The position numbers and the translations under genes are program-made. DNA of 28,842 nt from a virus: positions 1 through 28,842 of the IMG/VR virus record IMGVR_UViG_3300018056_000005; one strand, written 5' to 3'. This document shows positions 6,301 to 28,842 of the stretch, one piece after another (positions within the stretch are counted from its first letter, which is position 1; every line of letters starts with the position of its first letter). A model generated the notes under the pieces. The model was not told the DNA's origin. It did no database searches and saw only the letters and a list, made by a program, of their open reading frames with translations.

Positions 6301-9300
6301 CTTGCCGGACTTCATCGCCTCCGCGATGTAGTCACGGAGGGGCTTGATCCCGCCAAGATCGCCCGCGTCGATCTTCGCACCGACCCAGATCGCGGCCTGG
6401 AGGTCCGCCGGCTGCATCCCCATCTTCGCGGCCTGTGTCCGCATCCAGTCCGCGACGAGCGCGTACCGCGCGGGCGTGCCAGAGTAGGTGCCGGCCTCGG
6501 TGGTGGCCTTGGTCTTGGCGGCCTCCTCCGGGTAGAAGATCCCCCACATCCATCGGTCGATCACGACCGCGTTCCGGTCGCCCTTGAGCGCCTGGGCGAA
6601 GTTGTAGACCTTGAGCTGGCTCTTGAGAACGCCCTCCAGGGGCTGGCCTTCGAGCAGGCCCTGGACCGCGCGCTTCGTGAACGCGGACGCGGTCGGGACG
6701 TCGGCGCCGATCTGGGCCGGGTCGAGCCCCTTCTTCCATTTCGCGTACGCGTCGATCGCGTACTCGACGTTCTTCTCGACGCGCATGTTCGGCGACGTGA
6801 CCGCGATCAGGTTCGACATCAATTCCCAGTCGCTGCCAAAGTGCTTCTGTAGTTCCTCGGGAACGCCCACGTACCAGTTGGCGCCGCCCTCGCCCTTCGC
6901 GGCGAGCTTCAGGGCGCGCTTCGTCTCGGGCATCTTCGCGCCGATCGCGCCGGTCTCGTCCTTCATGATCTGGCGTAGAGTCTCCAGGAACGTGGGCGTC
7001 TCGTCGCCCTTGAGGGACTCGACCATCGCCTGGAACTGCGTACGAATGTCCGACAGGCCCTTGAGCGCCGTCTCGTTCTTCGCGAGCTGCTCGTAGGCTG
7101 CGCGGGCCTGTGCCTGTGTCTCGGCGACTCCAGGCATCGCGGCCTTGGCCGACTCGGTCTCCGTGCGAGGCGCGAGCGCGTTCGTGATCCCGGGCTCGCC
7201 CTCCAGGCCGGCGAGCCGCTGCTCGACCGGCGGGAGATTCAGGTTCTCCGACGACAGGAACGCCTTCTGCTCGCCGAACGCCTGGTTCTTGTAGTACGAC
7301 GCCGCCTGGCCGTACACCTCGGTCTGGAGCGCGCGCTTCGCCTCCGGCGACAGGACGTGCTCGGCCTGCGCCAGGAACGCCTGGTATTCGCCGTGAAGTG
7401 AGAAGTCGTTACCGTTCAGGTGCCCGAGGTAGTCGTGGACCGCACGGAACTTAAGGTTCTGCTCCGGCGTCCAGAACGGGTGCTCGATTCCGACATCCGA
7501 CACCTTGAGGTTGCCGGCCTTCATGTCGGCCGCCAGCTCGTCGATCGAGCCGTAGGGCTGCGCGCCATGGACCGTCTCGATGTTGATCTTCTTCGAGATG
7601 TCGTCGTAGAGCTTCTCAGTCTCCGTCATCAGCGCGTCCCACGCCGGCTTCGCGGCCGGGTCGTGCAGCGCCGCGTCGTACTCGCTCGCGATCTTCATTT
7701 CCTCGGGCGTAAGCGGCGCCGCAGGCGCGCCCATCGGGTGCATGCCCTGCGTCGCGTCCTGAATCGGGATGTCGGTCTTGTTCGCGAAGTCGTAGATCGC
7801 CTTCTGTTTGTACTGGCGGCCGAGCGCGATGGCCTCGGCCTGGTCTGGAACGATCACCGAGATGTCAACGTGCGTCGTGCCGGCGTTGTCCTTCCAGGTG
7901 CCTAGGTGCGCGCGCGGGTCCGACAGGACTTCGGCGTTCTTACGCGCGAACGTCCCGAGGTCCTCGGCCGTCAGCGGGCCACGGACCATCATCCCGCGCT
8001 CGGGCGCGATGGAGACCGCAAAGCCCTTGTCGGCCGGCGCGAAGTCGTGGGTCGTGGCGCTGTAGCTGACGCCGCCCTCCGCGTTCGTGCGGTCGATAAT
8101 CTCCTGGGCCTTGAACTGGACGCGGCTCTCGACCGTGTGCGCCTTGATCGCCTCGGGCGTGACTGGCTTACCAGCTTCGACCAGCAGCGTCGAGCCCGTC
8201 TTCGGGTCGTTGAACCAGGTGCCGGAGGCGTCTTCGGCCAGGAACTGGCCCCCGGCCTTCTTGACGGCCGCCTCGCCCCCGCCGGCGGCGCCAGGGACCG
8301 GCATACCGACCGCCCCGCGCTCGCCCCGGACCTCGTCCCAGATCTTGGCGGCCCATTCCTGGACCTCGGGCGTCTGGAGGGCCCGCTTGCCACGCTCCAG
8401 GATCGTCTCCGCGCCGGGGGCAGCAATTTGCTCGACGAACTGCTCGGGGGTCATCTTCGCGGACGCCCCCACGACCGGAGCGGCCTCTGCGGCGGCTCCA
8501 GCCGGCCCCACCGGCGCCTCTCCCGGGGCCTCAGCGAGGCCAGGGACACGCTTTGGCGTCACCTGGCGGGCGGTACCCTCCGCGGTGGCTCCTACCGCCT
8601 CCTTGGCGGCCACACGGCCCGCTGCCGTAGCCTCCTTGGCGACCGCGCCACCGGACTTGACGATCTTCGCCAGCGCGCTCAGGCCGGAGGTGTAGACGGA
8701 GGCCATCCCGGTCCCTACCTCGCCGATCATACGGGCGGCCTCTTTTTTCTCGTTCGCCCGCTGTTCGGGCGTGAGGACCAGCATCCGCTCCCAGTACGGG
8801 ACGGCCTCCGGGAAGTGGAGCTTCGCGTCCGCCAGGTGGGCCTTGATGACCTCGTCCGTGAAGTAGCCCCGGTTGTGGTACTCGACAACCTCGGCGAGCA
8901 TGTGGCCACCGGCGGCGCTGTACGGCGTCGCGGCACTGAACGACCCGAAGAACAGATCACGGACCGTGCCGAGGACGTTGCCGATGCGGTTCGTGTCCTC
9001 GGCCTCGACCCGCAGATCGACGGCGGGCGTGGACTTGCCACTGAGGGCAGTACCGAGCTGGGCTACGCCCTCCTTGGATTGCTTACCGACCGCGCCCACG
9101 GTCTGGACCGCGACATCGCCGACAGTCTCCAGAGGCGACGGGATCGTGCCTTCGGGCCGGCCCGTGACGTCCGGCAGGCCCTCGATCGCGGCACCAAGGC
9201 GACTACCCAGGCCTGGGCCCTCTGGCTTCTTCGTCGCAGGCTTCGGGGCAGGCTTCTGGCCCTCGGGCTGCGCCGCGGCGGCCTTCTCGGCGATCCAGGC

Positions 9301-9357
9301 ATCGAGCTCATCGCGCTCGCGCCGGTAGTACGAGTCGTTGATCTTGCTGTCGCTCAT
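3391..9357 (-). CDS. Giant internal virion / ejection protein with polyvalent-protein domains
   Basis: A 1988-residue protein from ATG 9357, with a GGGAG ribosome site. It occupies the position of T7 gp16, last of the three internal proteins. Visible blocks: a low-complexity Pro/Lys leader; a beta-rich block around 375-535 (GGVSYSATTHDF at 428); a conserved histidine block around 600-700 (HDYLGHL at 641, then GEYQAF and TEVYGQ); a helical block around 780-985 (TSPN near 854, VVIDRWMW near 934); a region at 1332 (LNLLSSPLTHAKNVIGD); GWRPYSLYNP around 1648 after a membrane-like segment; and a C-terminal region around 1775-1800 (INQFRQTVPGWSD) resembling LPD38. I infer a virion protein injected with DNA that may also carry enzymes into the cell. 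No lytic transglycosylase motif was found. Confidence 0.8.
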   Translation of the reverse strand: MSDSKINDSYYRRERDELDAWIAEKAAAAQPEGQKPAPKPATKKPEGPGLGSRLGAAIEGLPDVTGRPEGTIPSPLETVGDVAVQTVGAVGKQSKEGVAQLGTALSGKSTPAVDLRVEAEDTNRIGNVLGTVRDLFFGSFSAATPYSAAGGHMLAEVVEYHNRGYFTDEVIKAHLADAKLHFPEAVPYWERMLVLTPEQRANEKKEAARMIGEVGTGMASVYTSGLSALAKIVKSGGAVAKEATAAGRVAAKEAVGATAEGTARQVTPKRVPGLAEAPGEAPVGPAGAAAEAAPVVGASAKMTPEQFVEQIAAPGAETILERGKRALQTPEVQEWAAKIWDEVRGERGAVGMPVPGAAGGGEAAVKKAGGQFLAEDASGTWFNDPKTGSTLLVEAGKPVTPEAIKAHTVESRVQFKAQEIIDRTNAEGGVSYSATTHDFAPADKGFAVSIAPERGMMVRGPLTAEDLGTFARKNAEVLSDPRAHLGTWKDNAGTTHVDISVIVPDQAEAIALGRQYKQKAIYDFANKTDIPIQDATQGMHPMGAPAAPLTPEEMKIASEYDAALHDPAAKPAWDALMTETEKLYDDISKKINIETVHGAQPYGSIDELAADMKAGNLKVSDVGIEHPFWTPEQNLKFRAVHDYLGHLNGNDFSLHGEYQAFLAQAEHVLSPEAKRALQTEVYGQAASYYKNQAFGEQKAFLSSENLNLPPVEQRLAGLEGEPGITNALAPRTETESAKAAMPGVAETQAQARAAYEQLAKNETALKGLSDIRTQFQAMVESLKGDETPTFLETLRQIMKDETGAIGAKMPETKRALKLAAKGEGGANWYVGVPEELQKHFGSDWELMSNLIAVTSPNMRVEKNVEYAIDAYAKWKKGLDPAQIGADVPTASAFTKRAVQGLLEGQPLEGVLKSQLKVYNFAQALKGDRNAVVIDRWMWGIFYPEEAAKTKATTEAGTYSGTPARYALVADWMRTQAAKMGMQPADLQAAIWVGAKIDAGDLGGIKPLRDYIAEAMKSGKLEQDAFDFFENVGKTMNEEGRINLATTMMLARASIGATLGGMTGDDPESMARNALIGFGVGSIASGKTARAIGQAFAGTKLHGALDDLAAVLKSESGAMVPGAEFKRPFADFAKKPEPPAPTVRQLDPGKKLANDINTKLQFAKKFSRTYDDQIAESLRSNRFSTIEDVLKVDAKVVKPAEVEGTMKDLVGVRDFVMEDLLETFARAKLSGDPALAREARAKYAFAGRVSQHVTDAESALSKGVARGGSPVGAVDMERFSKDLQGIEAAIEGTMKDSQLVEMVTRQADRAAAAKLAETGSRYPQALWNIYYGLNLLSSPLTHAKNVIGDMAGLGLAIADRAMGELVAIPFHVVGKGQGHVRFGETYELVRGAWEMVADSFRAAKPKGAFGYGRDTFRSGESAFGDVTKAGERLRMLGAKVNDAELGGPRALAKVVDLMSTLAQKNLKFMDGTDEFFKVLTFNGEIRAQARRAAAAEGWTGKDFAERLQHYIDKPTTEMLENAHYYAHENTFTKAFDPEAGGWQHLWGAGATAQAISQTPLVRFAATPFFRTPTRLAEFSLTHTPGLNLIAVQTMSDIAAGGAKADLAVGKLVTGLGVAGLTFYAATHGYITGAWPKDLALKERYKGTGWRPYSLYNPWTGKYWSYAGIEPISTMLAGAANLAQYAPHLEDHQFNTVVQAMALSYKDGIFNNPFLQGASDISDVIESMNREDNVGKMLEWVGKRAASLVPFGALGRNLARSASDVERETRTVDDAPPELREMDTVINQFRQTVPGWSDTRPAKMNMITGEPVPAESGWLGFALPYQISSNANDKVLNELVALGGAGLPKEVPRVLGGNMPRDNIIVKESDIKEGVLLTDDERTEFTRLLTHAKNDEGRTLHQELNHQMFEDNEDYKDASKGRDGGRAQIIKQIFREFYITAEEKFKEGHPEVANVIERRQLERDLGRLPSSMEDMKDPMRQMLEEDQRAK

Positions 9358-11077: not shown

Positions 11078-11599
11078 TTAATCGTCCGCCGTTCCCGCCG
11101 ACTTCAGGCCGCCGCCGGTCTGTTTGCCGGTGCCGCCAGCGCCACCACCGCCGTAGTAGGAGGTCGCGATCGAGCCCGAGCTGGACAGCAGCGAGATCCC
11201 GGCCGCCATCTCGGGGTCGATCTGGCCGGCCTGCTGCTTCAGGAAGTTCGCCTGAATGTCCTTCCCGCGCGCACTGAGAGTGTAGCCGTACCGGAGGTGC
11301 TGCGCCTCGACCTCCGCGTCGGCAGCGAAGTCCATCTCGGCGAGCAGCGAGGAGCCCTCGCCCACGACCACGCCCGCGGCGCCCGCGCGCGAGTGGAAGC
11401 TGTCGAGCCGCTTCTTGTCCTTCGCGCGCTGTCGCGCGGCCGCGGCCTCGCCCGCCAGGCGCGTCATTGCGGCGTCGTCCTCGCGGATCTTCGCCTGGGT
11501 CTTCAGGTTCTCCTTCTGCTTCTGGGCCGCGTCGTAGGCGGCGTACGCCGAGACCGCCGCACCGATGATCGCGACCGCAAGAAGGGCAATCGTCGCCAT
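11078..11599 (-). CDS. Internal virion protein, T7 gp14-like
   Basis: A 173-residue protein from ATG 11599, with GGAGAG upstream. Residues 3-22 form a membrane segment (TIALLAVAIIGAAVSAYAAY), then a long Ala/Lys/Arg-rich helix, a segment RLDSFHSRAGAAGVVVGEGS, another helix and a Gly-rich tail. The hydrophobic start followed by an amphipathic helix and an R-A-G-A-x-G-V-x-x-x-x-G-S segment is the usual appearance of gp14-type core proteins. In T7, gp14 inserts in the outer membrane during DNA ejection. The place next to the gp15- and gp16-like genes supports the call. Confidence 0.75.
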   Translation of the reverse strand: MATIALLAVAIIGAAVSAYAAYDAAQKQKENLKTQAKIREDDAAMTRLAGEAAAARQRAKDKKRLDSFHSRAGAAGVVVGEGSSLLAEMDFAADAEVEAQHLRYGYTLSARGKDIQANFLKQQAGQIDPEMAAGISLLSSSGSIATSYYGGGGAGGTGKQTGGGLKSAGTADD

Positions 11600-12062: not shown

Positions 12063-12385
12063 GCCTCCAGGTGCAGCACGTAGTGCCGCATGGTGTCGTC
12101 CTCATAGTAGAGCGTGAACCCGAACCAACGTGCCGCGACTGTGAGCTTTCGTTCGGTCGGGTATCCCTTCGCGATGCGAAACGCGACGAACGCGTACTTA
12201 CGCTCGCGCGCCACCTGGAAACCGTGTGAGAGCATCCCCACCAGATCGCCTGCGTTCGCGCCCGGGAACGTGATGACGTGCTCTAGAAAAAATCCGTTCG
12301 CGCCCTCGTGGCCCGTCAGCACGCCCACCGGCCACTGACCCGGCGTGTATGTGACGACAACTTGGCCGTCTTTCACCTCGATCAA
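12059..12385 (-). CDS. Second, compact GNAT-like protein
   Basis: 108 residues. The start is TTG 12385, supported by a GGAG site 7 bases upstream and by a TTGA overlap with the preceding stop. The fold pattern is a short GNAT domain: strand (FFLEHVITFPGANAGDLVGM), helix (LSHGFQVARERKYAFVAFRI), then KLTVAARWFGFTLYYEDDTM and RHYVLHLEA. It lacks the clear acetyl-CoA loop of its neighbour. It resembles the short acetyltransferase-like proteins of podoviruses (the DUF2824 type, P22 gp14-like), some of which act as head or tail assembly factors. Catalysis is doubtful. Confidence 0.55.
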   Translation of the reverse strand: MIEVKDGQVVVTYTPGQWPVGVLTGHEGANGFFLEHVITFPGANAGDLVGMLSHGFQVARERKYAFVAFRIAKGYPTERKLTVAARWFGFTLYYEDDTMRHYVLHLEA

Positions 12386-15060
12386 GGAATATCTCCGTCG
12401 CTCGCCTGCCAGCTGTACGCCACGCCGAGGACGGTCATAGCGAACGGCTGCGTCTGTCGGATCGTCACCTGGCCGTCACGGTCCCAGCCAAGGTTCGCCT
12501 GCCGCATGTAATCGAACACCTCCTGGGACTCGATGGACGTCTGCTTCACCAGCTCGCCATTCACCTTGATGCCGGCGCCGCCCGAGCACAGGAACCGGAT
12601 GTAGACCGTGGCTGACCGCTTCTTTTGAAACATTGCAGTACCGCCCTGGCCCGATGGATCTGGCCGCAGCGTCTTGATCTCGTTCTCGTAGTGGAGGCCC
12701 GCCTCGACCCGTACTGCGCCAGGGTCGGGGATCGTGAGCTCGCCAGAGCCGTCGATCACCGTCGTCTGGTAGGTCGTGCGTCGCTTCTGGAAGGCGTTGC
12801 CCTGGAAGGCGCCCTTCTGGAAGAAGCTCTGGCCCGACGTGAGGACGTCCACGCTCTCGCCCGCCAGGTGGCCGAACCCAGTCACGGACGTCATGAGCGT
12901 CTCGTCTCCGTCATCGGAGACGAGCGAGCAGTCCGTGTTCAGCTGCCCGTCGAAGACCTCGATGTAGTTGTCGACCCGTCCGTTGATGTTGCGTTCGACC
13001 GCGGCCCAGATCTCGTCGCCCGTGCCGCACTTCGCTGGAATGACGCACGCCGAGAGGTACGCGCCCTCACCCATCGCGGTCGTACCGGGACGGAGTCGCG
13101 TCCACGCAACCACGTCCTCCTTGCGCTCGTAGGTCGCGCAGTTCATGGAGCCGTCCTCCATGACCGCCAGGACGAACGAGTCCGGTGAGGCGCAGCGCGC
13201 GAGCTGGATGATGCCCGAGCCGAACAGGTGGTCCGCCAGGATGCACAGGTCCGGCGACGTGAAGCCGTCCGACGCGTAGTCGAACGCCATCTCGCGGACG
13301 TTCTGCCGCCCCCGCTGAACGAACAGCGTCGAGACCCCCGCTGGGATCGCGTCCGGCTCCGGGTCCGAGCCCCAGTCGCTCTGTGGCGCCGCGTGGACGT
13401 TCGTCGGCGTGATGGCCGTCGAGTCGCCGCCATCGACCTTGTACTCGGACCCGATCGCGCCGATGACGAAGTTCTTCATGGCCTTCGCCCACCGAATGAC
13501 GTCGACACGACCAGCGATCGGAAACCGGACGGCGTCGTCGTCGTCGGACCCGCCCGCGAAGTTCTCGAAGTCGCCCGAGACCGAGCCGTGAACGTCCTGG
13601 CCCTTGAATAGCCAGAACCGCTGCTCGAAGAAGCACGGGACGTCAGGGAAGCCCAGGTCTGTCGAGAAGCTCTCACGCTCCAGGGTCCAGGCGCCAGACA
13701 CCAGGGACGTACCGGTGAAGGGCTTCAGGATGCGGACGGTCGCGACCGTGTCGGACCCGATGGCGGTGATCTCCGCGATACCCTCCAGCCCGAGGATGAA
13801 GGCGCCGACGTCGATCGAACGGAAGCCCGCGATCGTGAGCGTGGCGGACGTGACGGTGTTGACCGGGCCCGCCGCCCCGAGCGTCAACGTCGAGGACGGG
13901 GAGCCGTCCAACGACCAGAGGCCGGCGCCGATCGGGTTCGTCGAGATAAACGGCTGAATGATGTCGGCCGTCACGTCGTCCGAATCGACCACGGCCGTGA
14001 TGACCGCGAGCCCGCCCTGCGCGTGAATCTGTCGATTGATGTCCGCCGCGAAGAACGTACCGACCGCGCCCGCGTGGAAGTTGACGCCCTGGCCGATGGT
14101 CGCGCCCGGCGTCAGCGTGGTCGCCGGCTCCAGATCCACCTCCTCGCTCGGGGGCGGTGACAGGACCACGTCCTGGAGCGTCCAGAGGATGTCCGACAGC
14201 CGTGTGAGCTTCCGCACAGGCTGCTCGGGGTGACAGATGTACAGCACGTCCGCCGACTGCGCGAACCGCAGTGAGCGCAGCTGTGCGGCCGTGTAGGTCG
14301 TGGCGAGCTCCAGAGGGAGCGCCGACAGCGCGCTGACGTTGTCGAGCGTGTTCGCCGAGAAGGGCTCGGTCGAGCGCCAGTAGATCACGATCGTGCCCGA
14401 CGACGGCGCCACGAACGTGGCCCGGAAGTCGCCCGACGTGATTGCCGTATCCTGGATCACGTCGCCCGCGCCGAGGGCGGTCCCGATCTGGAAGGTCTGG
14501 ACACCGCCCGCGGTGAAGTTCACCACGTAGGTCGTGCCGGGGTCGAGCCCAGCGATCGTCTGCGAGATCCCGGCCGTACCGGCCGCGCCCGGCGTCAGCA
14601 CCGCGTGGCCCGTGTCCCACGTCACGGTCGCGCCGTTGTCCTGCTGGAGCGTCCAGGACGTCAGGTCCGTGTCGAAGTTCCCGTTCAGTACGAGCTCGGA
14701 GCCGCCGCCGGTCCCGAGAAGCTGCTTTCGGTTGCGGAAGAAACGGATGTAGCCCGCACCGAACTCCAGGACGTACGCCTCCTGCGTGTTGAAGATGAAT
14801 GGCACCAGGAGGATCTTCGCGCCGGTAGGGTCCATCTGGAAGGCGTTGTTCTGGAATGCGCTCTTCTGGAACGCGGAGCGGCTCTTCGCCTTCGCGACGA
14901 ACTGCGTGCCCGCGCGCCGGACGGCGCCGCCAGATACCTTCACGACGGTGTTGAACAGGTCCTCCGCGCCGTTCGGGTACTTCTTGAAGTCCGAGCGGAG
15001 GAACAGGTAGGGCGATAGAATCCCGCCGGTGAAGTTGGACTGAAGCTGGTGGAAGCCCAC
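12382..15060 (-). CDS. Tail nozzle (tail tubular protein B, T7 gp12-like)
   Basis: An 892-residue protein from GTG 15060. The N-terminus (QSNFTGGILSPYLFLRSDF, then KKYPNGAEDLFNTVV and GGAVRRAGTQFVA) is the standard nozzle signature. The nozzle attaches to the adaptor and ends the tail tube. It is longer than T7 gp12 (794 aa) because of insertions: AFQ five-residue repeats at 61-75 and again near 745-760; a carbohydrate-binding-like beta domain at 121-246; and two copies of a beta-module of about 70 residues at 315-384 and 391-461. That module also occurs in the adaptor. The inserted domains probably decorate the tail surface and may contact host glycans (inference). Confidence 0.93.
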   Translation of the reverse strand: MGFHQLQSNFTGGILSPYLFLRSDFKKYPNGAEDLFNTVVKVSGGAVRRAGTQFVAKAKSRSAFQKSAFQNNAFQMDPTGAKILLVPFIFNTQEAYVLEFGAGYIRFFRNRKQLLGTGGGSELVLNGNFDTDLTSWTLQQDNGATVTWDTGHAVLTPGAAGTAGISQTIAGLDPGTTYVVNFTAGGVQTFQIGTALGAGDVIQDTAITSGDFRATFVAPSSGTIVIYWRSTEPFSANTLDNVSALSALPLELATTYTAAQLRSLRFAQSADVLYICHPEQPVRKLTRLSDILWTLQDVVLSPPPSEEVDLEPATTLTPGATIGQGVNFHAGAVGTFFAADINRQIHAQGGLAVITAVVDSDDVTADIIQPFISTNPIGAGLWSLDGSPSSTLTLGAAGPVNTVTSATLTIAGFRSIDVGAFILGLEGIAEITAIGSDTVATVRILKPFTGTSLVSGAWTLERESFSTDLGFPDVPCFFEQRFWLFKGQDVHGSVSGDFENFAGGSDDDDAVRFPIAGRVDVIRWAKAMKNFVIGAIGSEYKVDGGDSTAITPTNVHAAPQSDWGSDPEPDAIPAGVSTLFVQRGRQNVREMAFDYASDGFTSPDLCILADHLFGSGIIQLARCASPDSFVLAVMEDGSMNCATYERKEDVVAWTRLRPGTTAMGEGAYLSACVIPAKCGTGDEIWAAVERNINGRVDNYIEVFDGQLNTDCSLVSDDGDETLMTSVTGFGHLAGESVDVLTSGQSFFQKGAFQGNAFQKRRTTYQTTVIDGSGELTIPDPGAVRVEAGLHYENEIKTLRPDPSGQGGTAMFQKKRSATVYIRFLCSGGAGIKVNGELVKQTSIESQEVFDYMRQANLGWDRDGQVTIRQTQPFAMTVLGVAYSWQASDGDIP
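12787..12831 (-). repeat. AFQ five-residue repeats, second array in the nozzle gene
   Basis: Three in-frame 15-base units encode FFQKG, AFQGN and AFQKR near nozzle residues 744-758. The period and wording match the first array about 2 kb away in the same gene. A lone F-Q-K-K-R follows near 12624. Confidence 0.75.
14836..14880 (-). repeat. AFQ five-residue repeats, first array in the nozzle gene
   Basis: Three in-frame 15-base units encode x-A-F-Q-x repeats at nozzle residues 61-75 (SAFQK, SAFQN, NAFQM region). The DNA period is exact (CTGGAA followed by N-GCG on the plus strand). Confidence 0.8.
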
Positions 15061-15072
15061 GAGGCTACGCCC

Positions 15073-15921
15073 TTACATCCGCACGGCAATCAGCATGTCG
15101 GAGCCAGAGTCGTCGGCCGTTCCCTCTTGACCGTCCGCGGCGCGTGCCTCGCGCAGCCCCTGCTGGTACGCGTCGAAGTGCGTCTTCGCCGCCTGGAGCG
15201 AGCCCGTCATGCCGTAGCTGATGCGGAACGCGAGCAGGGCCTCGATCGTGTTGGCGAGGTTCGGGTCCCATAGCGCCGGGTTCTCGACGTCCTCGATGTA
15301 CTGGACGTTCATCTTCGCGCCGACGTCCGTCACGAGCCAGATGCCCTCGGCCTTCACTGGCTCCGGCGAGTTGTCGCGGTGCTGCCACCAGGACCAGAAG
15401 AAGCTGCCGGGCGTCGTGAGGCCCGAGAGGCCCTCGACCTCGATCACGCGCAGGTACCCCGCCGGCTTCGGGAACCGGAAGTCGAACCGCCAGGCCGGCG
15501 CGATCCGCCAGGACTCGATCGCGATCGGGTTGACGTCCGCCAGGTTGGTCTCGATGTCGGCCCGGACGTTCTGCGTATCGACGAACGTACGGACGCGGGC
15601 GATGCCGCCGGTGGCGGTGCCGACGACCAGGCGGGAGCGTACGTCGGTCTCCAGGAAGACCGGCGCGGACGCGGTGAACAGGACGTTGGTCCCGGAGATC
15701 GCGCCCGGCGTGAGGGTCGCCTGCGGAAAGCTGTTCAACTGGTCGCGCACGAGCGCGACGTTCCACGGGTGCGCGCGCAGGGCCTCACGTCGCGTCTTGT
15801 CGACCCACTGGCGCCCGAGCGTACCGCGGTCGGAGACCTCCTCGAAGGTCGCCAGGGGCTCGCCGCCCATACGCAGCAGCGCGCCGTTGATCACGTCGAG
15901 CTTCGCGGTCTCGAAGGCCAT
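15073..15921 (-). CDS. Tail adaptor (tail tubular protein A, T7 gp11-like)
   Basis: A 282-residue protein from ATG 15921, with GAGGAG 8 bases upstream. The N-terminus (AKLDVINGALLRMGGEPL, then WVDKTRREALRAHPWNVALV) is the classic gp11 pattern, and the C-terminal helices (ALLAFRISYGMTGSLQAAKT) match as well. It joins the portal to the nozzle. T7 gp11 has 196 residues; the extra length is explained by a beta-module of about 72 residues at 69-140 (TLTPGAISG...). This is related to two modules in the neighbouring nozzle. Removing it leaves about 210 residues, the normal family size. Confidence 0.93.
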   Translation of the reverse strand: MAFETAKLDVINGALLRMGGEPLATFEEVSDRGTLGRQWVDKTRREALRAHPWNVALVRDQLNSFPQATLTPGAISGTNVLFTASAPVFLETDVRSRLVVGTATGGIARVRTFVDTQNVRADIETNLADVNPIAIESWRIAPAWRFDFRFPKPAGYLRVIEVEGLSGLTTPGSFFWSWWQHRDNSPEPVKAEGIWLVTDVGAKMNVQYIEDVENPALWDPNLANTIEALLAFRISYGMTGSLQAAKTHFDAYQQGLREARAADGQEGTADDSGSDMLIAVRM

Positions 15922-17845: not shown

Positions 17846-18721
17846 TTACGCGTCGAGGCAGTCGATCTCGATGATCTTGGGCTCCTGCATCCGCACTGCG
17901 CCACCGCCCATCATGGCGTAGACGTACCACGAACCGCGCTTGTCCCATCGACGAACCACTTCCGTGGTGATGTCGGGGTTCTGCGCGAAGAGCAGACCGC
18001 TCTTGCAGTACAGCGGCACCTTCCGGGTGGTGGACACGAGCGTCACCAGCTCCGTGTGCTCGAAGGTGGTGCCCAGGAAGGTGTCGACGTCGCCGCGAAC
18101 CAGCGCCTTCACGCTGTTGTAGTCCACGGACGTCACCTCCGTGGTGTTCAGAAGGTCGGCCTCCTGCGTCGCCGAGACCGCGATGTGGAGCTCCTCCATC
18201 CGCAGATCGACGTTGCCGCGGCGCATGAGACGCCGAGCCTCGACGAGCTTCGCGACGGTGAGCCCGACGTTGGTGCCCCCGAAGTTCAGGGCGACGATGT
18301 TGCCCGCCGGGAAGGTGACGGACGTCGAGCCGTCCTTGCCGGTGAACGCGGTACCGAACATCGCGGCGAGGATGATCTCGTCGCAGCGCCGTCCGAGCGC
18401 GTACGCGGCGTTCTTCGTGTACGGGCCGGTCGGGTCGATCATGATGCGGACCTTGTCGATCTTGTCCACGAAGTCGCCCCAGTCGAAGAACTCCTGCGTC
18501 ACGCGACGCCGGTCGTGTGGGGTGTCGACCTGCGGCGAGTCACCGTGACGGTTGTTGATCGTCAGGGCCGCCGTGGGACCGATCTGCTCCCAGAACTGTT
18601 CCTCGGAGTTCTGGGTCTCTTGCCGTACGGTGCTGCGGAGGCGCGAGCCCTCCTGCTGGACAAGCATCTCCACGCTGTCGTGGTACTGCTTGACCATCGC
18701 TGTCGGGATCTGCTGAGACAT
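17846..18721 (-). CDS. Major capsid protein (Phage_capsid_2-like)
   Basis: A 291-residue protein from ATG 18721, with GGAGGGT 7 bases upstream. The start (AMVKQYHDSVEMLVQQEGSR), the DTPHDRRRVTQEFFDWGDFV segment, the helix with MFGTAFTGKDG and the later ALVRGDVDTFLGTTF block match the Phage_capsid_2 family of HK97-fold coat proteins as I know it. No N-terminal delta domain is seen; a separate scaffold gene lies upstream. A long leader and a downstream hairpin frame the gene, as expected for the most abundant virion protein. Confidence 0.88.
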   Translation of the reverse strand: MSQQIPTAMVKQYHDSVEMLVQQEGSRLRSTVRQETQNSEEQFWEQIGPTAALTINNRHGDSPQVDTPHDRRRVTQEFFDWGDFVDKIDKVRIMIDPTGPYTKNAAYALGRRCDEIILAAMFGTAFTGKDGSTSVTFPAGNIVALNFGGTNVGLTVAKLVEARRLMRRGNVDLRMEELHIAVSATQEADLLNTTEVTSVDYNSVKALVRGDVDTFLGTTFEHTELVTLVSTTRKVPLYCKSGLLFAQNPDITTEVVRRWDKRGSWYVYAMMGGGAVRMQEPKIIEIDCLDA

Positions 18722-20085: not shown

Positions 20086-21867
20086 CTATCTCCCTACGCC
20101 GCCGGTGGGAACACCGCGGCCTGTCATCCCGCCCTGCGGCAGGATGCCGCTGATCTGCGCCTCGGACAGCGCCTTGAGCATCGGGGCGGCCGCGCCGCCG
20201 GCCTTCATGGTCTCGTTGGCCTGCGCCTGCTGCTGCGCCTGCTGCTGCTGCTGGCGCCGCTCCTGGCGCCGCTTGTCGCGCTCCTCGATCGAGCGGATGA
20301 TCGCCGGTGGCGCACCGGTCTGCTTCGCCAGGATGCGGAACACTGCGTCCGTGTCGAGGTTGTCGAGCGCCTCCGGGTCCACCTCGACGATCGGCAGCGC
20401 CACCTGGAAGAACCGCTGCACGGTCACGACGTCGCCCAGCCGCTGCGCGCGCTGGAGCGGGCCCTCGTACTCGATGTCGAACTTCTTGCCCTTCTTGTCG
20501 AGCGCCTTCGCCATCGTCGGCGGGATCTTCTCCAGGCGCTTCGCACGCTCCAGCGTGTGGTACACGAACTCGATCACGGGCCCGAGGTACTCGACCTCCA
20601 GTCGACCGAGCGTCGGACCAAGCACACGCTGCATCAGCTCGTACCGGACCTGGACCTCGTAGGCCGTCATCTGCGGCCCCTCTTGAAGCTGCAACTGGTC
20701 CGCGAAGAACATCCGCCGGATAGCCTGCTGGAGCTTCTCCTCGTTCAGGACGGCGGTGTTGATGTCGCCCTTGATCATGATGGCCTCGACGGCCTCCATG
20801 TCCCGGACGTGCGTGAGCCCGCCCGGCGAGAGCCGCACGACCCCGAGGACGCCGTCGTCGCGCACCTTCAACGGCGGGTACACCATGTTCGCGAGCGCGC
20901 GGAGCTTCAGCTCCACGAGCTTGTTCAGGGTCTTGATGTCCGCGAGCGCGGTGAAGCCCGGCGAACGACCGTACTTCTCGCCCGAGGTCTTCGTCCAGCG
21001 CGCGACCGCAAACGGGAACTCGAAGTACCCGCTCTCTTCCAGGATGCGCGGGCCCTCCAGCGAGAGCCACACGGACGCGAACGGCCGGTCAGGTCCGAGC
21101 AGCCGGTCCTTGTCCTTCCCGTACGCGCGCGAGTACGAGTCCTTGCGCGGGAACACGCAGTGCAGGAACTCGAAGGGCTTGTCCTTGTCGACCTCCTTCG
21201 CGTACGCGGCCTGGATCTGCTCTGGCAGCGCGCGCACGCCCCACTTCTGGACGGCCTGGCGCGCGGTCAGCGAGAACTTGTAGTACAGCGTGTCGACGAT
21301 CCCCTCGTCGTTCTCGTCGATACAGTACGAGCCAGGCTGGAGCGTCTTGAAGCGCATGCCCGTCCAGGGCTGGCCCGGCTTCGCGTTCCGGCGCGCCATG
21401 AACATCGCGGCGGTCCCGATGCAGCCCAGGTCGGCGTAGAACTCGTGCGACTCGGCCGAGAAGTTCGACTGCTTCAGCTCGTCGTAGCTCGCGTCGCCCG
21501 ACTGATCGAGCCACTTGTCGGTCTCGGTGTCCTTGCCATACTCCAGGCCGCGCAGGCGGTAGTAGAACCACTTCACCGAGCCGGACGTGAGTGAGCCCTG
21601 CATCGAGGCCGAGAGGAGCTCGTTCGCATGGACCGCGGTCGCGTCGAGCAGGCGCTCGGTCTGCGTCTGGCCCGGCGTGCGATTGAGGTTCACGTTCGCC
21701 TTGCGCGGCATGATGAACTCGGTCAGCTCCTGCCACGTACGGAGCCACGTGGACAGATCCGAGTACATCGACGCCCAGCGTTTCGTGTGCAGCTGCGCCT
21801 CTTCGCGCATCGCAAGGTCGTCGAGCACGACCGCCTTGCGGTTGATCGCCCCCGCCTGGATCGCCAC
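20086..21867 (-). CDS. Portal protein (T7 gp8-type head-tail connector)
   Basis: A 593-residue protein from GTG 21867. The start region (WASMYSDLSTWLRTWQELTE and FIMPRK), then TERLLDATAVHANELLSASM, GSVKWFYYRL, SAESHEFYADLGCIGTAAMF and LYYKFSLTARQAVQKWG are typical of the Head-tail_con portal family of podoviruses. It forms the dodecameric ring through which DNA enters and leaves the capsid. The C-terminal part has a Gln/Arg coiled coil (RDKRRQERRQQQQQAQQQAQ), as expected for the barrel, then a Gly-rich end. Length is normal to slightly long for the family (T7 gp8 is 536). Confidence 0.93.
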   Translation of the reverse strand: MAIQAGAINRKAVVLDDLAMREEAQLHTKRWASMYSDLSTWLRTWQELTEFIMPRKANVNLNRTPGQTQTERLLDATAVHANELLSASMQGSLTSGSVKWFYYRLRGLEYGKDTETDKWLDQSGDASYDELKQSNFSAESHEFYADLGCIGTAAMFMARRNAKPGQPWTGMRFKTLQPGSYCIDENDEGIVDTLYYKFSLTARQAVQKWGVRALPEQIQAAYAKEVDKDKPFEFLHCVFPRKDSYSRAYGKDKDRLLGPDRPFASVWLSLEGPRILEESGYFEFPFAVARWTKTSGEKYGRSPGFTALADIKTLNKLVELKLRALANMVYPPLKVRDDGVLGVVRLSPGGLTHVRDMEAVEAIMIKGDINTAVLNEEKLQQAIRRMFFADQLQLQEGPQMTAYEVQVRYELMQRVLGPTLGRLEVEYLGPVIEFVYHTLERAKRLEKIPPTMAKALDKKGKKFDIEYEGPLQRAQRLGDVVTVQRFFQVALPIVEVDPEALDNLDTDAVFRILAKQTGAPPAIIRSIEERDKRRQERRQQQQQAQQQAQANETMKAGGAAAPMLKALSEAQISGILPQGGMTGRGVPTGGVGR

Positions 21868-22141: not shown

Positions 22142-22426
22142 CTAGTTGGTGAGCCAGCTACCGCACTTCGTGAAGAGCGGGTGGCCGCACTCGTCGAGTC
22201 GCTTCGCCTTGTTCGCGGTCTTCAGGTCCTCCGGCACGATCGACACGTCGATACCGATCTCCCCCTGCATCTGGATCGCGGTCGTCAGCGCACCAGCCCG
22301 AGACAGTGCGATCGTGATCACGCCCGCGAGCTGGATGTCGGTCGTCAGGGCGCCCGCGAGCGTCACCGTGACGGGAACCTCAGCCGAGAAAATGTCGCTA
22401 CTGAACAGCAGCGTCTTCGGAATCAT
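22142..22426 (-). CDS. Small protein with two 20-residue GxLTTxIQL repeats
   Basis: 94 residues from ATG 22426. Residues 25-44 and 45-64 are two tandem copies of a 20-residue repeat (GALTTDIQLAGVITIALSRA and GALTTAIQMQGEIGIDVSIV), preceded by a half copy (VPVTVTLA). The alternating hydrophobic pattern predicts a short beta-solenoid or beta-hairpin stack. The remainder is charged, with a Cys pair (DECGHPLFTKCGSWLTN). The same repeat fills a second gene at 24043-24504, so the two are related by duplication or exchange. A virion surface role is inferred from the surrounding tail-type genes. Confidence 0.6.
   Translation of the reverse strand: MIPKTLLFSSDIFSAEVPVTVTLAGALTTDIQLAGVITIALSRAGALTTAIQMQGEIGIDVSIVPEDLKTANKAKRLDECGHPLFTKCGSWLTN
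22235..22354 (-). repeat. Two tandem 60-base coding repeats
   Basis: Two in-frame 60-base units encoding G-A-L-T-T-x-I-Q-x repeats. They are related to the five units at 24121-24420. Confidence 0.8.
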
Positions 22427-23143
22427 CTATGATCTCGGCGCAACCCAACAGAAGGGGTGCATAGTGATACGCGCGATCTCCGGGATCTGGAGCTGCCGGT
22501 GGTAGATCCAGAAGAACTTCCACTTCGCCAGGTCGGACGCCTGCGAGTTGTTCTTCCCGAGCTGAAACTGGGTCCCGCCCTGGACGCGTGTATTCACGCC
22601 AGCGTTGCTGGCTCGAAGAATTCCGTTCTGCCAGATCTCGGCGCCTCGGGCGCCCTGCGTGAATGCCCAGATGTCGTCACCGAACGTCAGGCCGCCGACC
22701 GTGAGGCGGTTGGTGCCGGCCGTACCGCCGTAGTCCCAGTACGTGATGCCGTCGCTGAACGGGATGTAGCCGTCGCACACGGACGTGGTACCTGTCGCTG
22801 TCCCGAACGCGACCGAGCCGCGTGCGGTCGCGTCGGTCTTCTGGTACCCAAGCACGATCGAGATATCGGCCAGCGGCAGGACCAGACTATCGAGCCCCAG
22901 CGTATCGAAGTCCGTGGTCGCACTGTGCTCCCGCGCCTGGCCCGCGAACCCTCGGGCCGACGTCGGCGAGTACAGGGTCGAGCCCTGCGTGCCGGCGAGC
23001 AATGCCTCGATGTTGGTCACGATGTCGATCGTGCGCCCACCCAGCAGGAAGCCGTACTTCGGGCAGAGCGAGTGACCACGTACCGGGCGCGCGTCGACGG
23101 GCGGGATGAAGCTCCAGCCCTTCGTGAGGATGTCGATCCCCAC
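22427..23143 (-). CDS. LamG / concanavalin-like lectin domain protein
   Basis: 238 residues from GTG 23143. The second half has the typical LamG order: GDDIWAFTQGARGAEIWQNG (W-x-N-G strand), GTQFQLGKNNSQASDLAKWK and FFWIYHRQLQIPEIARI, the last matching the usual closing helix after the jelly-roll. The first 60 residues (SFIPPVDARPVRGHSLCPKY) may anchor it. Such domains bind sugars on phage appendages. No catalytic motif is visible. Its stop directly abuts the start of the repeat protein. Probable role: a virion receptor or glycan-binding protein (inference). Confidence 0.7.
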   Translation of the reverse strand: MGIDILTKGWSFIPPVDARPVRGHSLCPKYGFLLGGRTIDIVTNIEALLAGTQGSTLYSPTSARGFAGQAREHSATTDFDTLGLDSLVLPLADISIVLGYQKTDATARGSVAFGTATGTTSVCDGYIPFSDGITYWDYGGTAGTNRLTVGGLTFGDDIWAFTQGARGAEIWQNGILRASNAGVNTRVQGGTQFQLGKNNSQASDLAKWKFFWIYHRQLQIPEIARITMHPFCWVAPRS

Positions 23144-23147
23144 GGCG

Positions 23148-23642
23148 TTACGGGCTCGACGCTAGAAGGCCGATGTACTCCACGAAGTGATCGCTCTCGG
23201 TAGTCGAGAGGGCCGCCCCGCTGCTGTTCAGGAGAACGATGCTCCAGGACGGCGGCAGGAGCCCGCCGAACGCCTGCGCGACCGACAGGGGCTCGCTGAT
23301 GCGCGTGAGGTTCTGTGCGGCCTCGATCGCGCCGATCAGCTTCAACTGCGTCGGACTGTTCAGCGTGATTGCGGCGTCCGCGCCCGTGACCGCGTCCGGC
23401 CACACGAGGGACGACGTCCGCCAGACGCCGGCCGCGTAGATGTACAGGCGCTTGTCGCCGGCTGGGGCGGTGTTCGCGAACTTCACCTTCACCCCGACGA
23501 GCGCGTCCAGGAACAGGTTCGTGGTGTTGTCCACGAGCAGGGACTCGCGCGCTGATCCGCTCGCCAGCCCCACCCCGCCAGGGGCGAGCGTGATCGTGAT
23601 GACCTGGCCGCCGGTCCCGTACTTCGTCTTGATGTCGGGCAT
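23148..23642 (-). CDS. Phage structural-type hypothetical protein
   Basis: 164 residues from ATG 23642, overlapping the preceding TGA (TGATG); the longer frame upstream is a shadow of the next gene. The sequence starts MPDIKTKYGTGGQVITITLA and continues with SARESLLVDNTTNLFLDALV, KRLYIYAAGVWRTSSLVWPD and FGGLLPPSWSIVLLNSSGAA. This Thr/Asn/Leu-rich beta pattern with a jelly-roll look is common in small phage proteins encoded next to tail-fibre genes. Likely a virion component; no named family. Confidence 0.6.
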   Translation of the reverse strand: MPDIKTKYGTGGQVITITLAPGGVGLASGSARESLLVDNTTNLFLDALVGVKVKFANTAPAGDKRLYIYAAGVWRTSSLVWPDAVTGADAAITLNSPTQLKLIGAIEAAQNLTRISEPLSVAQAFGGLLPPSWSIVLLNSSGAALSTTESDHFVEYIGLLASSP

Positions 23643-24046
23643 CAGGACACGATGACGTCGAGCGCGCCGATCGCGAAGCTCGGTGCGGCGTCGCCGCCGT
23701 TGACGTTCTTGGGTACCGCCAGGGCGCCGCCACCGAGGAAGTTCCCTACGGTTGCCGCGTCCCACAGTCCGACGTGCGTGATCAGGCCCCAGTTGGCCGT
23801 GGGTGAAGGGAACGTGATGGTCGCGACGTTGTCCGTGAGGCCATCGGTCGGAGTGCCCGCCGACCAGTTGGCGTCGGCCGCATCGCGCTGGACGCGCGCG
23901 TAGGAGCCGCCCGAGACCTCGCTCGCGCCCGTGTCGGCGGGGTCGGCCGTGTGGAGCGAGATGTAGCGCGTGGTGTCTTTCGCCCACGTGCCGGTCCGCA
24001 TCAGGTGTGTGCGGATCTTGTCTTCGATGTAGTCGGAAGCGCTCAC
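23642..24046 (-). CDS. Phage tail fibre-type protein
   Basis: 134 residues from GTG 24046 (GTGA overlap with the preceding stop). Conserved elements: SDYIEDKIRTHLMR, then RYISLHTADPADTGASEVSG, SYARVQRDA, THVGLWDAATVGNFLGGGAL and a final beta strand. The S-L-H-T-A-D-P-x-D-T-G and E-V-S-G-G-S-Y-A-R motifs are typical of a widespread small phage protein usually annotated as a tail fibre protein. Its exact place in the virion is unknown, but it supports reading this gene cluster as tail appendages. Confidence 0.7.
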   Translation of the reverse strand: MSASDYIEDKIRTHLMRTGTWAKDTTRYISLHTADPADTGASEVSGGSYARVQRDAADANWSAGTPTDGLTDNVATITFPSPTANWGLITHVGLWDAATVGNFLGGGALAVPKNVNGGDAAPSFAIGALDVIVS

Positions 24047-24504
24047 CGTCGTCTCCTATAGTTCACGATGTATCGAGTCACGTCGCCGCCGCCAGGTGGA
24101 CCCGGTGCGGTCAGGTCTCCAGTCACCATGAGCCCGATCGGGATCAGGCCCTGCATCTGAATCTGTGTCGTCAGCGCGCCTGCGATCGCGAGCGCGATAT
24201 TCACCGAGCCCGCCATCTGGATCGCGGTCGTCAGGTCGCCGGCCTTCGCGAGCGCGATCTGGACGGCGGCAACGAGCTGAATGGCCGTCGTCATGCTGCC
24301 GGTCGCGTTCAGTGCGATCTCGATCGCGGCCTGGAGCTGAATGGCCGTCGTCAGTGAGCCGGCCGGCGCGAGCGTGATACCGACCGCGCCCACCAGTTGG
24401 ATCTGCGTCGTCAGCGCGCCTGCGAACGAGAGCGAGAGCGGGATCGTTCCCGCGAGCTCAATCGGCGGTGGTCCGCCCCCTAGAAGCGCGAGAAGGAGCG
24501 ACAC
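24043..24504 (-). CDS. Tandem-repeat protein of 20-residue GxLTTxIQL units
   Basis: 153 residues from GTG 24504, with GTGA-type coupling to the next gene. Residues 29-128 are five exact-length 20-residue repeats (for example GALTTQIQLVGAVGITLAPA and GSMTTAIQLVAAVQIALAKA), flanked by partial copies on both sides. Consensus: G-x-[LM]-T-T-x-I-Q-[LM]-x-x-x-[IV]-x-I-x-L-x-x-[AT]. Every second residue is hydrophobic, as in a beta-solenoid with one rung per unit. The start is hydrophobic and Gly/Pro-rich, the end Arg-rich (RYIVNYRRRR). A related two-unit protein lies at 22142-22426. Family not recognised; fold and surface role are inferred. Confidence 0.65.
   Translation of the reverse strand: MSLLLALLGGGPPPIELAGTIPLSLSFAGALTTQIQLVGAVGITLAPAGSLTTAIQLQAAIEIALNATGSMTTAIQLVAAVQIALAKAGDLTTAIQMAGSVNIALAIAGALTTQIQMQGLIPIGLMVTGDLTAPGPPGGGDVTRYIVNYRRRR
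24121..24420 (-). repeat. Five tandem 60-base coding repeats
   Basis: Five in-frame units of exactly 60 bases encode the 20-residue repeats. Partial units continue on both sides, to about 24462 and 24103. DNA similarity is strongest in the segment coding T-T-x-I-Q. Codons differ between units, so the array is not a very recent expansion. Confidence 0.85.
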
Positions 24505-27558: not shown

Positions 27559-28842
27559 CTATCTCCACCAGTCGTCGCCGCGCTCGACCTCGGTCTGCGC
27601 CGCGACCTGCTCGCGCGTGTTCGCGCCGAGCCGCCGCGATGGCGGCGTGAATGTCTCTGCCTGCTCCTGTTCGAGCGGACCGTGCATGTTGTGGAGCGTG
27701 CGGGCCCAGTCCTGGACGGTCCCGCCGAGATTGACCTGCCACGCGACCGCGCGCGTTCGCCAGGCGTCCGCACCGTGGGAGGCCCAGTCGTGCTTCGGGA
27801 CGTTGCGCCAGGTCGCGTTCTTCTCGTCGAACTCGCGGCAGTAGGACGCGAGCGCGGCCAGACCGCGGGAGCAGCCCTCGTACAGGACCGACTTCCCCTG
27901 GTGCTCCTCGACCACGAGCGAGTCGTTCTCGGTGTCGTCGAACGTCGAGAGCGGCAGCAGCATCCGGCCGGCGTTGATCCCGTCCTCGATCGGGAGCTTC
28001 GGGACGGCTTCGAGCGTCACGCCCATCGACTGCGCGAACTGCACGCGGGTCTTCCCGGTCGAGTACTCACGGACCTTCGCGTCGTGCGGCACGTAGTGTC
28101 GTCCGTACGCGTAGGGCTTCAGGCGCATCCGTTCGATGTACCACCCGAGGCCGTGCGACGAGGACTCCAGGTAGTCTACGACGCGGCACTTGCCGGCGAT
28201 CGTCTGCGTAAACCAGATCGCGGTCGCGTCGTCGATCCCGAAGTCCCAGGCGGTGTCGACCTGGTACTTGGGGTCGTACTCCTGCCGGCAGACGCGGCCC
28301 TCGTTGTAGGCGGCCTTCAGCTGGTCCGAGTAGTACGCCCCGAGGAGGGCGCCCTCGAACGAGCAGTAGAACTCCTGCTGCACCAGCTCCTCGGCCATCC
28401 CGGAGGCGCGCTCGTCCTGGATCGCCTTCGGCGAGATGACGACCGTGTCGTTCTCGTCCTGGGCGTCGCGTCGTGTGTCGTCGCACGTCTTCAGGGACGC
28501 GAACCAGTCGGTCGACTTCAGCGCGTGCTTCCAGAGCGTCCAGCCGTGGTTCTTCCCGCGGGGCGTGTAGACGAAGACGGCCCAGCCGCCGTTCTCCGCG
28601 AGGATCGGGCGCGTCAAGTTCCACGCCTTCGGGTCCATCAGCGAGTACTCGGAGAAGACGCACCCGATCGGGTTCGTCCCGACGCTCGTGCTGTCCGCCT
28701 CGTCGGCCCCCAGGATCTTGAAGATCGAGTGCCGGCCAGGACACAGGATCTGGTCGGGGCAGTCGGCGTTGTGGCCGTCGCCGATCGAGAGCGTGATCTT
28801 CATCTCGGTCTCGTTCTTCCCGACCAGAAGGTGCTGCGGGAA
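27559..28842 (-). CDS. terL: Terminase large subunit, N-terminal part outside the window
   Basis: The frame is open to the window edge, giving 427 residues of the C-terminal part; ATG 28803 is internal, since FPQHLLVGKNETE precedes it in frame. The end of the ATPase domain shows GCVFSEYSLMDPKAW (Walker B region with its Glu) and FVYTPRGKNHGW (coupling motif). The nuclease domain follows, with DTAWDFGIDDATAIWF, the first acidic residues, and SHGADAWRTRA near the end. The protein pumps DNA into the procapsid through the portal and cuts the concatemer. It heads the leftward structural module. The small subunit is not in the window. Confidence 0.93.
   Translation of the reverse strand, partial: FPQHLLVGKNETEMKITLSIGDGHNADCPDQILCPGRHSIFKILGADEADSTSVGTNPIGCVFSEYSLMDPKAWNLTRPILAENGGWAVFVYTPRGKNHGWTLWKHALKSTDWFASLKTCDDTRRDAQDENDTVVISPKAIQDERASGMAEELVQQEFYCSFEGALLGAYYSDQLKAAYNEGRVCRQEYDPKYQVDTAWDFGIDDATAIWFTQTIAGKCRVVDYLESSSHGLGWYIERMRLKPYAYGRHYVPHDAKVREYSTGKTRVQFAQSMGVTLEAVPKLPIEDGINAGRMLLPLSTFDDTENDSLVVEEHQGKSVLYEGCSRGLAALASYCREFDEKNATWRNVPKHDWASHGADAWRTRAVAWQVNLGGTVQDWARTLHNMHGPLEQEQAETFTPPSRRLGANTREQVAAQTEVERGDDWWR

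Follow-up and report, generated by a model that had tools for sequence, protein, structure and literature searches.

A small repeat protein of a T7-like podovirus is read here, with moderate confidence, as the rope in a neck fibre of two components, a bead chain resembling Fiber I of phage GP4, in which the number of repeat units would set the fibre length. Its gene adjoins that of a homologue of gp80, the bead protein of GP4 Fiber I. Fiber I is reported to be a chain of five gp80 dimers held together by an elongated rope protein, and the ten gp80 chains of structure entry 8jou agree with this arrangement. To our knowledge, no other phage fibre of the bead-and-rope type has a solved structure, and we know of no Pfam family for the rope. 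The window, that is the whole stretch of DNA that was analysed, is a record of 28,842 bases; its structural genes listed in Table 1 all lie on the minus strand.

Table 1. Features of the window, with the translated repeat units.
Feature	Coordinates	Strand	Remarks
414-aa gene, terminase-like by position	27559-28803	minus	
Repeat protein 1 (proposed rope)	24043-24504	minus	153 aa, GTG start; E 7e-21 against the family profile
Degenerate N-terminal partial (half) unit, IELAGTIPLSLSFA / PIELAGTIPLSLSFA	24421-24465	minus	family profile still aligns
Unit 1, GALTTQIQLVGAVGITLAPA	24361-24420	minus	
Unit 2, GSLTTAIQLQAAIEIALNAT	24301-24360	minus	
Unit 3, GSMTTAIQLVAAVQIALAKA	24241-24300	minus	
Unit 4, GDLTTAIQMAGSVNIALAIA	24181-24240	minus	
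Unit 5, GALTTQIQMQGLIPIGLMVT	24121-24180	minus	
Truncated C-terminal unit start, GDLTA	24106-24120	minus	
gp80 / PF23140 bead protein, GP4 Fiber I homologue	23642-24046	minus	GTG start; PF23140 E 1e-37
163-aa gene between gp80 and the 238-aa gene	23163-23651	minus	E 1e-13 to 8e-12 to relatives
238-aa gene directly upstream of repeat protein 2	22427-23143	minus	no significant Pfam/PHROG match
Repeat protein 2, two units and C-terminal CGHP tail	22142-22426	minus	94 aa; E 6e-11 to repeat protein 1
Repeat protein 2, unit 1, GALTTDIQLAGVITIALSRA	22295-22354	minus	
Repeat protein 2, unit 2, GALTTAIQMQGEIGIDVSIV	22235-22294	minus	
Portal	20086-21867	minus	PF12236, E 3e-121
Major head protein	17846-18721	minus	
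Tail protein	15073-15921	minus	
Tail protein	12382-15060	minus	
Internal virion protein	11078-11599	minus	
Internal virion protein	3391-9357	minus	

Residues 29-128 of repeat protein 1 form five consecutive 20-residue units with the pattern G-x-L-T-T-x-I-Q-L-x(11). The first-pass annotation had described an exact 20-residue array; the five units are indeed there, but they are exact in length only, sharing 7-13 of 20 residues and 34-43 of 60 bases with one another. As so few bases are shared, the array is considered old rather than the product of a recent duplication. The partial units described on both sides were also found, a degenerate half unit before the array and GDLTA after it. At a lag of 20 residues the protein is identical to itself at 58 of 133 positions, a value reached at any lag by none of 20,000 shuffled sequences. 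The GC content is 0.80 at the third codon position, against 0.53 at position 2, and this together with the conservation of the unit in 141 distinct ORFs (see below) indicates that the gene is truly coding. Searches of Pfam and NCBIfam (at the curated cut-off), PHROG and PDB sequences returned no family that matches the repeat or covers the protein, in line with the earlier remark that it belongs to no recognised named family, and a literature search by motif letters found no relevant paper. The N-terminal leader MS(I/L)LLxLLGG is common to repeat protein 1 and a protein encoded at 6363-6989 of contig L089, which is filed as Candidatus Gottesmanbacteria.

Relatives were sought in viral contigs and in contigs of bacterial genomes with a degenerate DNA pattern describing two units 60 nucleotides apart. 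At least 120 viral contigs and 24 bacterial contigs, many of them from Betaproteobacteria, were matched, giving 141 distinct ORFs among the matches listed. An open reading frame bearing arrays at 20-residue spacing was present in all of the first 104 loci examined. Of the 788 distances measured between recognised units in the 141 ORFs, 602 are whole multiples of 20 residues and another 115 exceed such a multiple by one, meaning that some units have 21 residues. In these longer units LTTxIxL is often replaced by a variant, for example LTTAPQGL or LTGGSIGL, possibly a bulge or an interruption. The consensus of 614 units is [GA]-x-L-[TS]-T-x-I-x-L-x-[GA]-x-A-x-A-x-A-x-A-x. Odd positions are small or hydrophobic (Thr at position 5) and almost free of charge, even positions are variable, and the strict in/out alternation runs unbroken through the unit. 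A simpler pattern, strict LTTxIxL twice at 60 nucleotides without the G/A anchors, gave nine matches in viral contigs, all of them due to chance and in wrong or short frames. No match was returned when members were compared by tblastn with a phage collection; low-complexity filtering probably masks the repeats, so this result is not evidence of absence.

The number of units was compared between phages, as the first-pass annotation had anticipated that it would vary, and it does. The 67 complete distinct members among the matches listed have 2-23 units (median 10); they exhibit no preference for even numbers, which strict dimers would suggest. Contig L092 contains at 1278-1517 a perfect 120-bp tandem duplication, two units within a single open reading frame, which represents a recent gain, and a single gap of 20 residues separates the proteins of L130 and L141, which are 64% identical. 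Gain and loss of units are therefore real in this family. Longer or shorter versions of the repeat protein appear to be carried by more than 100 other, mostly uncultured, phages. One 72-kb uncultured phage (L001) has at least two separate large repeat proteins (15-1565 and 3981-5993; 516 and 670 aa).

The commonest neighbour of the repeat genes encodes a protein of about 150 residues, upstream and of the same family as gp80 of the window. With a gp80-family profile, this neighbour was found in 37 of 39 repeat loci among the matches listed, against 2 of 44 control loci (Fisher p 1e-18), a contrast that may partly reflect phage type, the controls being other podoviruses. The repeat loci counted had at least 2.5 kb upstream and at least 1.5 kb downstream, and the controls were podovirus loci, 6 kb or longer, retrieved via the portal. 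An earlier count had given 45/48. The two genes lie on the same strand in 85 of 85 cases, and the link holds for members with and without a lectin-like N-terminal domain. Four apparent natural gp80-rope fusions were rejected, being overlapping stop-to-stop ORFs with the gp80 domain in a different ORF. The placing of the array beside fibre-type genes is thus borne out by gene context; the surface spike that had been proposed from it is not established. The gp80 of GP4 Fiber I in 37/39 loci points instead to a bead-and-rope fibre, a possibility that the first-pass annotation had left out of account.

The gp80 of the window matches chain a of 8jou in sequence (E 8e-12), and the same chain is the top Foldseek match (TM 0.69, E 9e-6) of its AlphaFold2 model, which has a pLDDT of 90. 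PF23140 is named "Podophage GP4 fiber I protein gp80" and 8jou is entitled "Fiber I and fiber-tail-adaptor of phage GP4". The second structural match is 9mt4_K, a connector protein of phage Bas63 (TM 0.61), so that the bead family may reach beyond podoviruses. In the window, the GTG start of gp80 overlaps the TGA of repeat gene 1 by 4 nucleotides (GTGA), and its Shine-Dalgarno sequence AGGAG sits in the last Arg codons of the repeat gene (24043-24060). This arrangement suggests that translation of the two proteins is coupled.

A comparable gene order occurs in cultured phages. Burkholderia phage BcepIL02 has gp55, a gp80 homologue, followed by gp56 and gp57, the last being homologous to 8jou_D (E 3e-20). 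Besides the ten gp80 chains, 8jou comprises three chains of D type; a fifteen-fold adaptor would result from three copies in each fivefold unit, and D is accordingly the probable fiber-tail adaptor. When a profile was built solely from the genes of about 100 residues downstream of metagenomic repeat genes, it matched BcepIL02 gp57 (6.5e-14) and also its homologues in CSP3, BcepMigl, Itty13, POI1126, Atu_ph08, PBC5, DSL-LC06 and Aegeus. Since gp57 is in turn homologous to 8jou_D, the metagenomic and the cultured phages share the succession gp80, repeat protein, 8jou_D homologue. Among the matches listed, 111 relatives have 0.6 kb or more of downstream sequence, and in 48 of them an 8jou_D homologue adjoins the putative rope gene. 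No 8jou_D/gp57 homologue was recognised by profile search within the window, a record that may be a fragment. BcepIL02 gp57 matches only the C-terminal end of phrog_4137 (349 positions); in other phages, a domain of 8jou_D type may consequently be joined to a second one.

The gene next to gp80 was compared with shuffled sequences for a 20-residue period, which was reached by 0/2000 shuffles in BcepIL02, CSP3 and POI1126, 12/2000 in BcepMigl, 19/2000 in OspP_OH, 33/2000 in PBC5, 0/300 in ct2t2046 and 2/300 in C72C1. In DSL-LC06 (0/300) the best lag is 40, then 20, and in Itty13 the period is not significant by the shuffle test. The periodicity test detected no clearly periodic gp80 neighbour in PVJ1, Lietuvens, Venkman, Mvi-JY20 and ACP17; gp80 may therefore also function where such a rope is absent. 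The family pattern was matched in register by OspP_OH p46 (z 6.9), ct2t2046 (5.7), PBC5 (4.7) and Atu_ph08 (4.5); the Bcep phages and POI1126 fail this register test. The family profile reaches none of these cultured-phage genes, BcepIL02 gp56 included. A C-terminal R-x-hydrophobic-x-V tail is present in 29 of 88 relatives of the repeat protein, against about 9 expected from shuffles, and also in the genes next to gp80 of BcepIL02, PBC5 and DSL-LC06; it was rejected as a family-wide mark, being found in a subset only. As the sequence score is not significant, the link between the repeat family and the Bcep22/GP4 branch rests on gene order, period and this shared tail.

BcepIL02 gp56, which belongs to phrog_19041 (virion structural protein), sits between the gp80 and gp57 homologues and resembles the repeat proteins in its repeats of about 20 residues, its alternation of small and hydrophobic residues and its tail. 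It differs in that its units vary from 20 to 22 residues. The phrog_19041 profile found no match among the window proteins, and PDB sequence searches matched no chain for the GP4 rope sequence. Mass spectrometry of JC1 virions detected the gp80 and gp57 homologues, and not the rope homologue gp54 (PMC9144972), which could have been missed for its low copy number; these data are not support for the rope reading.

The window contains a second repeat gene, absent from the first-pass annotation. Its product, repeat protein 2, matches the family profile (E 3e-10) and is 41% identical over 90 residues to the proteins of L106 and L118; a search of viral contigs with it gave no match. Both window proteins fall within the family as defined, the marks of which are 20-residue units in tandem (G-x-L-[ST]-T-x-[IV]-x-L) and the nearness of gp80. 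The C-terminal tail of repeat protein 2, A-x-R-L-D-x-C-G-H-P, is common to L106 and L118, and a similar CGHP tail ends the protein of L175. In three relatives (L132, L101 and L147), a long N-terminal domain and the array are joined in one protein, and a relative of the 163-aa gene lies directly upstream of this fused gene; the window has two genes in its place. By position, the 238-aa gene is proposed to be the counterpart of the long N-terminal domain. Repeat protein 2 would then occupy, as a second rope, the place of the fused domain-plus-rope protein.

It is presumed that each 20-residue unit lies in a strand-turn-strand conformation against one gp80 subunit, and that the row of units strings the gp80 beads into a flexible fibre. 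The number of units would fix the number of beads and thereby the fibre length. One unit per subunit is the simplest reading, and would fit the approximately 10-11 units of BcepIL02 gp56, read by eye, and the ten gp80 chains of 8jou; the GP4 rope would then be of the same type. With five units and two partial ones, rope 1 of the window would hold five or six gp80 subunits, and rope 2 would hold two. The C-terminal tail may anchor the rope to the adaptor in the relatives that have it, as the next gene often encodes the 8jou_D homologue. The N-terminal domain of many relatives, which is sometimes lectin-like, could form the outer tip.

The conformation of the array bears on a different reading, in which the repeat protein is a self-standing β-solenoid spike or spacer, with one rung per unit, that determines how long a surface fibre becomes and needs no gp80 partner. 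AlphaFold2, run with 50 aligned sequences, built two strands per unit in a solenoid-like arrangement (E31-37, E41-45, E51-57 and so on) with a pLDDT of about 80 in the array, and solenoid-type chains were the closest folds found with VIA-align (1k4z, Z 11.0, rmsd 3.3 over 123; 2b0r, Z 10.5, rmsd 2.6 over 113). The unbroken in/out alternation also fits a solenoid, and the solenoid proteins compared (cyclase-associated protein C-terminus, bactofilin and CsgA) have a similarly short period and two strands per repeat as in the model. However, they have no sequence similarity to the repeat, and the structural match is obtained only through a model of low robustness, the mean pLDDT falling from 73 to 42 over the five models. 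Foldseek found nothing at E<0.001 in PDB or BFVD. Moreover, in a published test AlphaFold2 folded 36 of 50 random repeats of 20 residues as solenoids (PMC11795689). The rung per unit that had been suggested from the sequence is thus not established: strand-turn-strand in each unit is credible, and a self-standing solenoid, which would leave the near-constant gp80 neighbour unexplained, is rather unlikely. A weak BFVD match (rank 5, E 0.02) was Q6V7N2, a 246-residue virion-associated protein of Bcep22; it has the same length as the BcepMigl gene product next to gp80.

The N-terminal regions of the relatives could also be taken to mean that the array serves as a stalk, flexible or trimeric, for receptor-binding domains, gp80 being a mere neighbour in the adsorption module. 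A lectin-like Laminin_G_3 domain was found in 10 of 42 long N-terminal regions, and in L077 the array is C-terminal to such a domain. Many members, both window proteins included, are however devoid of it, 33 of 77 having fewer than 100 residues before the array, and the presence of gp80 beside both kinds of member makes a stalk quite improbable. It is very improbable that gp80 and its repeat-protein neighbour decorate the vertex of the head close to the portal and form no fibre: PHROG 240 labels gp80 relatives "head protein", phrog_19041 places BcepIL02 gp56 in "head and packaging" and the Bas63 connector is the second structural match of gp80, but the PHROG category labels are annotation transfers, and gp80 is found in a GP4 entry that bears Fiber I in its title.

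The bead-and-rope fibre proposed here resembles GP4 Fiber I in the homologous bead protein that adjoins the repeat gene in the window, in the gene order, with the 8jou_D homologue, of many repeat relatives, and in the period of about 20 residues of the comparable gene of Bcep22-like phages. It differs in that the G-x-L-T-T-x-I-x-L signature is not detectable in the Bcep22-like genes, that many family members add an N-terminal domain, and that the window has two repeat genes and no recognised 8jou_D homologue. Another bead-chain neck fibre, gp82-gp81-gp80 of the Anabaena myophage A-1(L), is likewise attached via a pentadecameric ring, but its beads are trimers, about 14 of gp81 to one of gp82 and one of gp80, and the available part of its description names no rope protein (PMC10966104). 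The gp80 of A-1(L) and that of GP4 may have only their number in common.

A sequence signature present in at least 120 virus contigs is now tied to a bead protein of known fold, with the prediction that the number of repeats equals the number of beads. It is possible, and put forward tentatively, that the repeats constitute a widespread, unnamed rope family in which every unit captures a single gp80 subunit and the 60-bp unit acts as a genetic counter, its gain or loss directly resetting neck-fibre length in podoviruses and perhaps other tailed phages. If this is true, many unannotated phage genes would become readable as fibre parts, and fibre length would be predictable from sequence.
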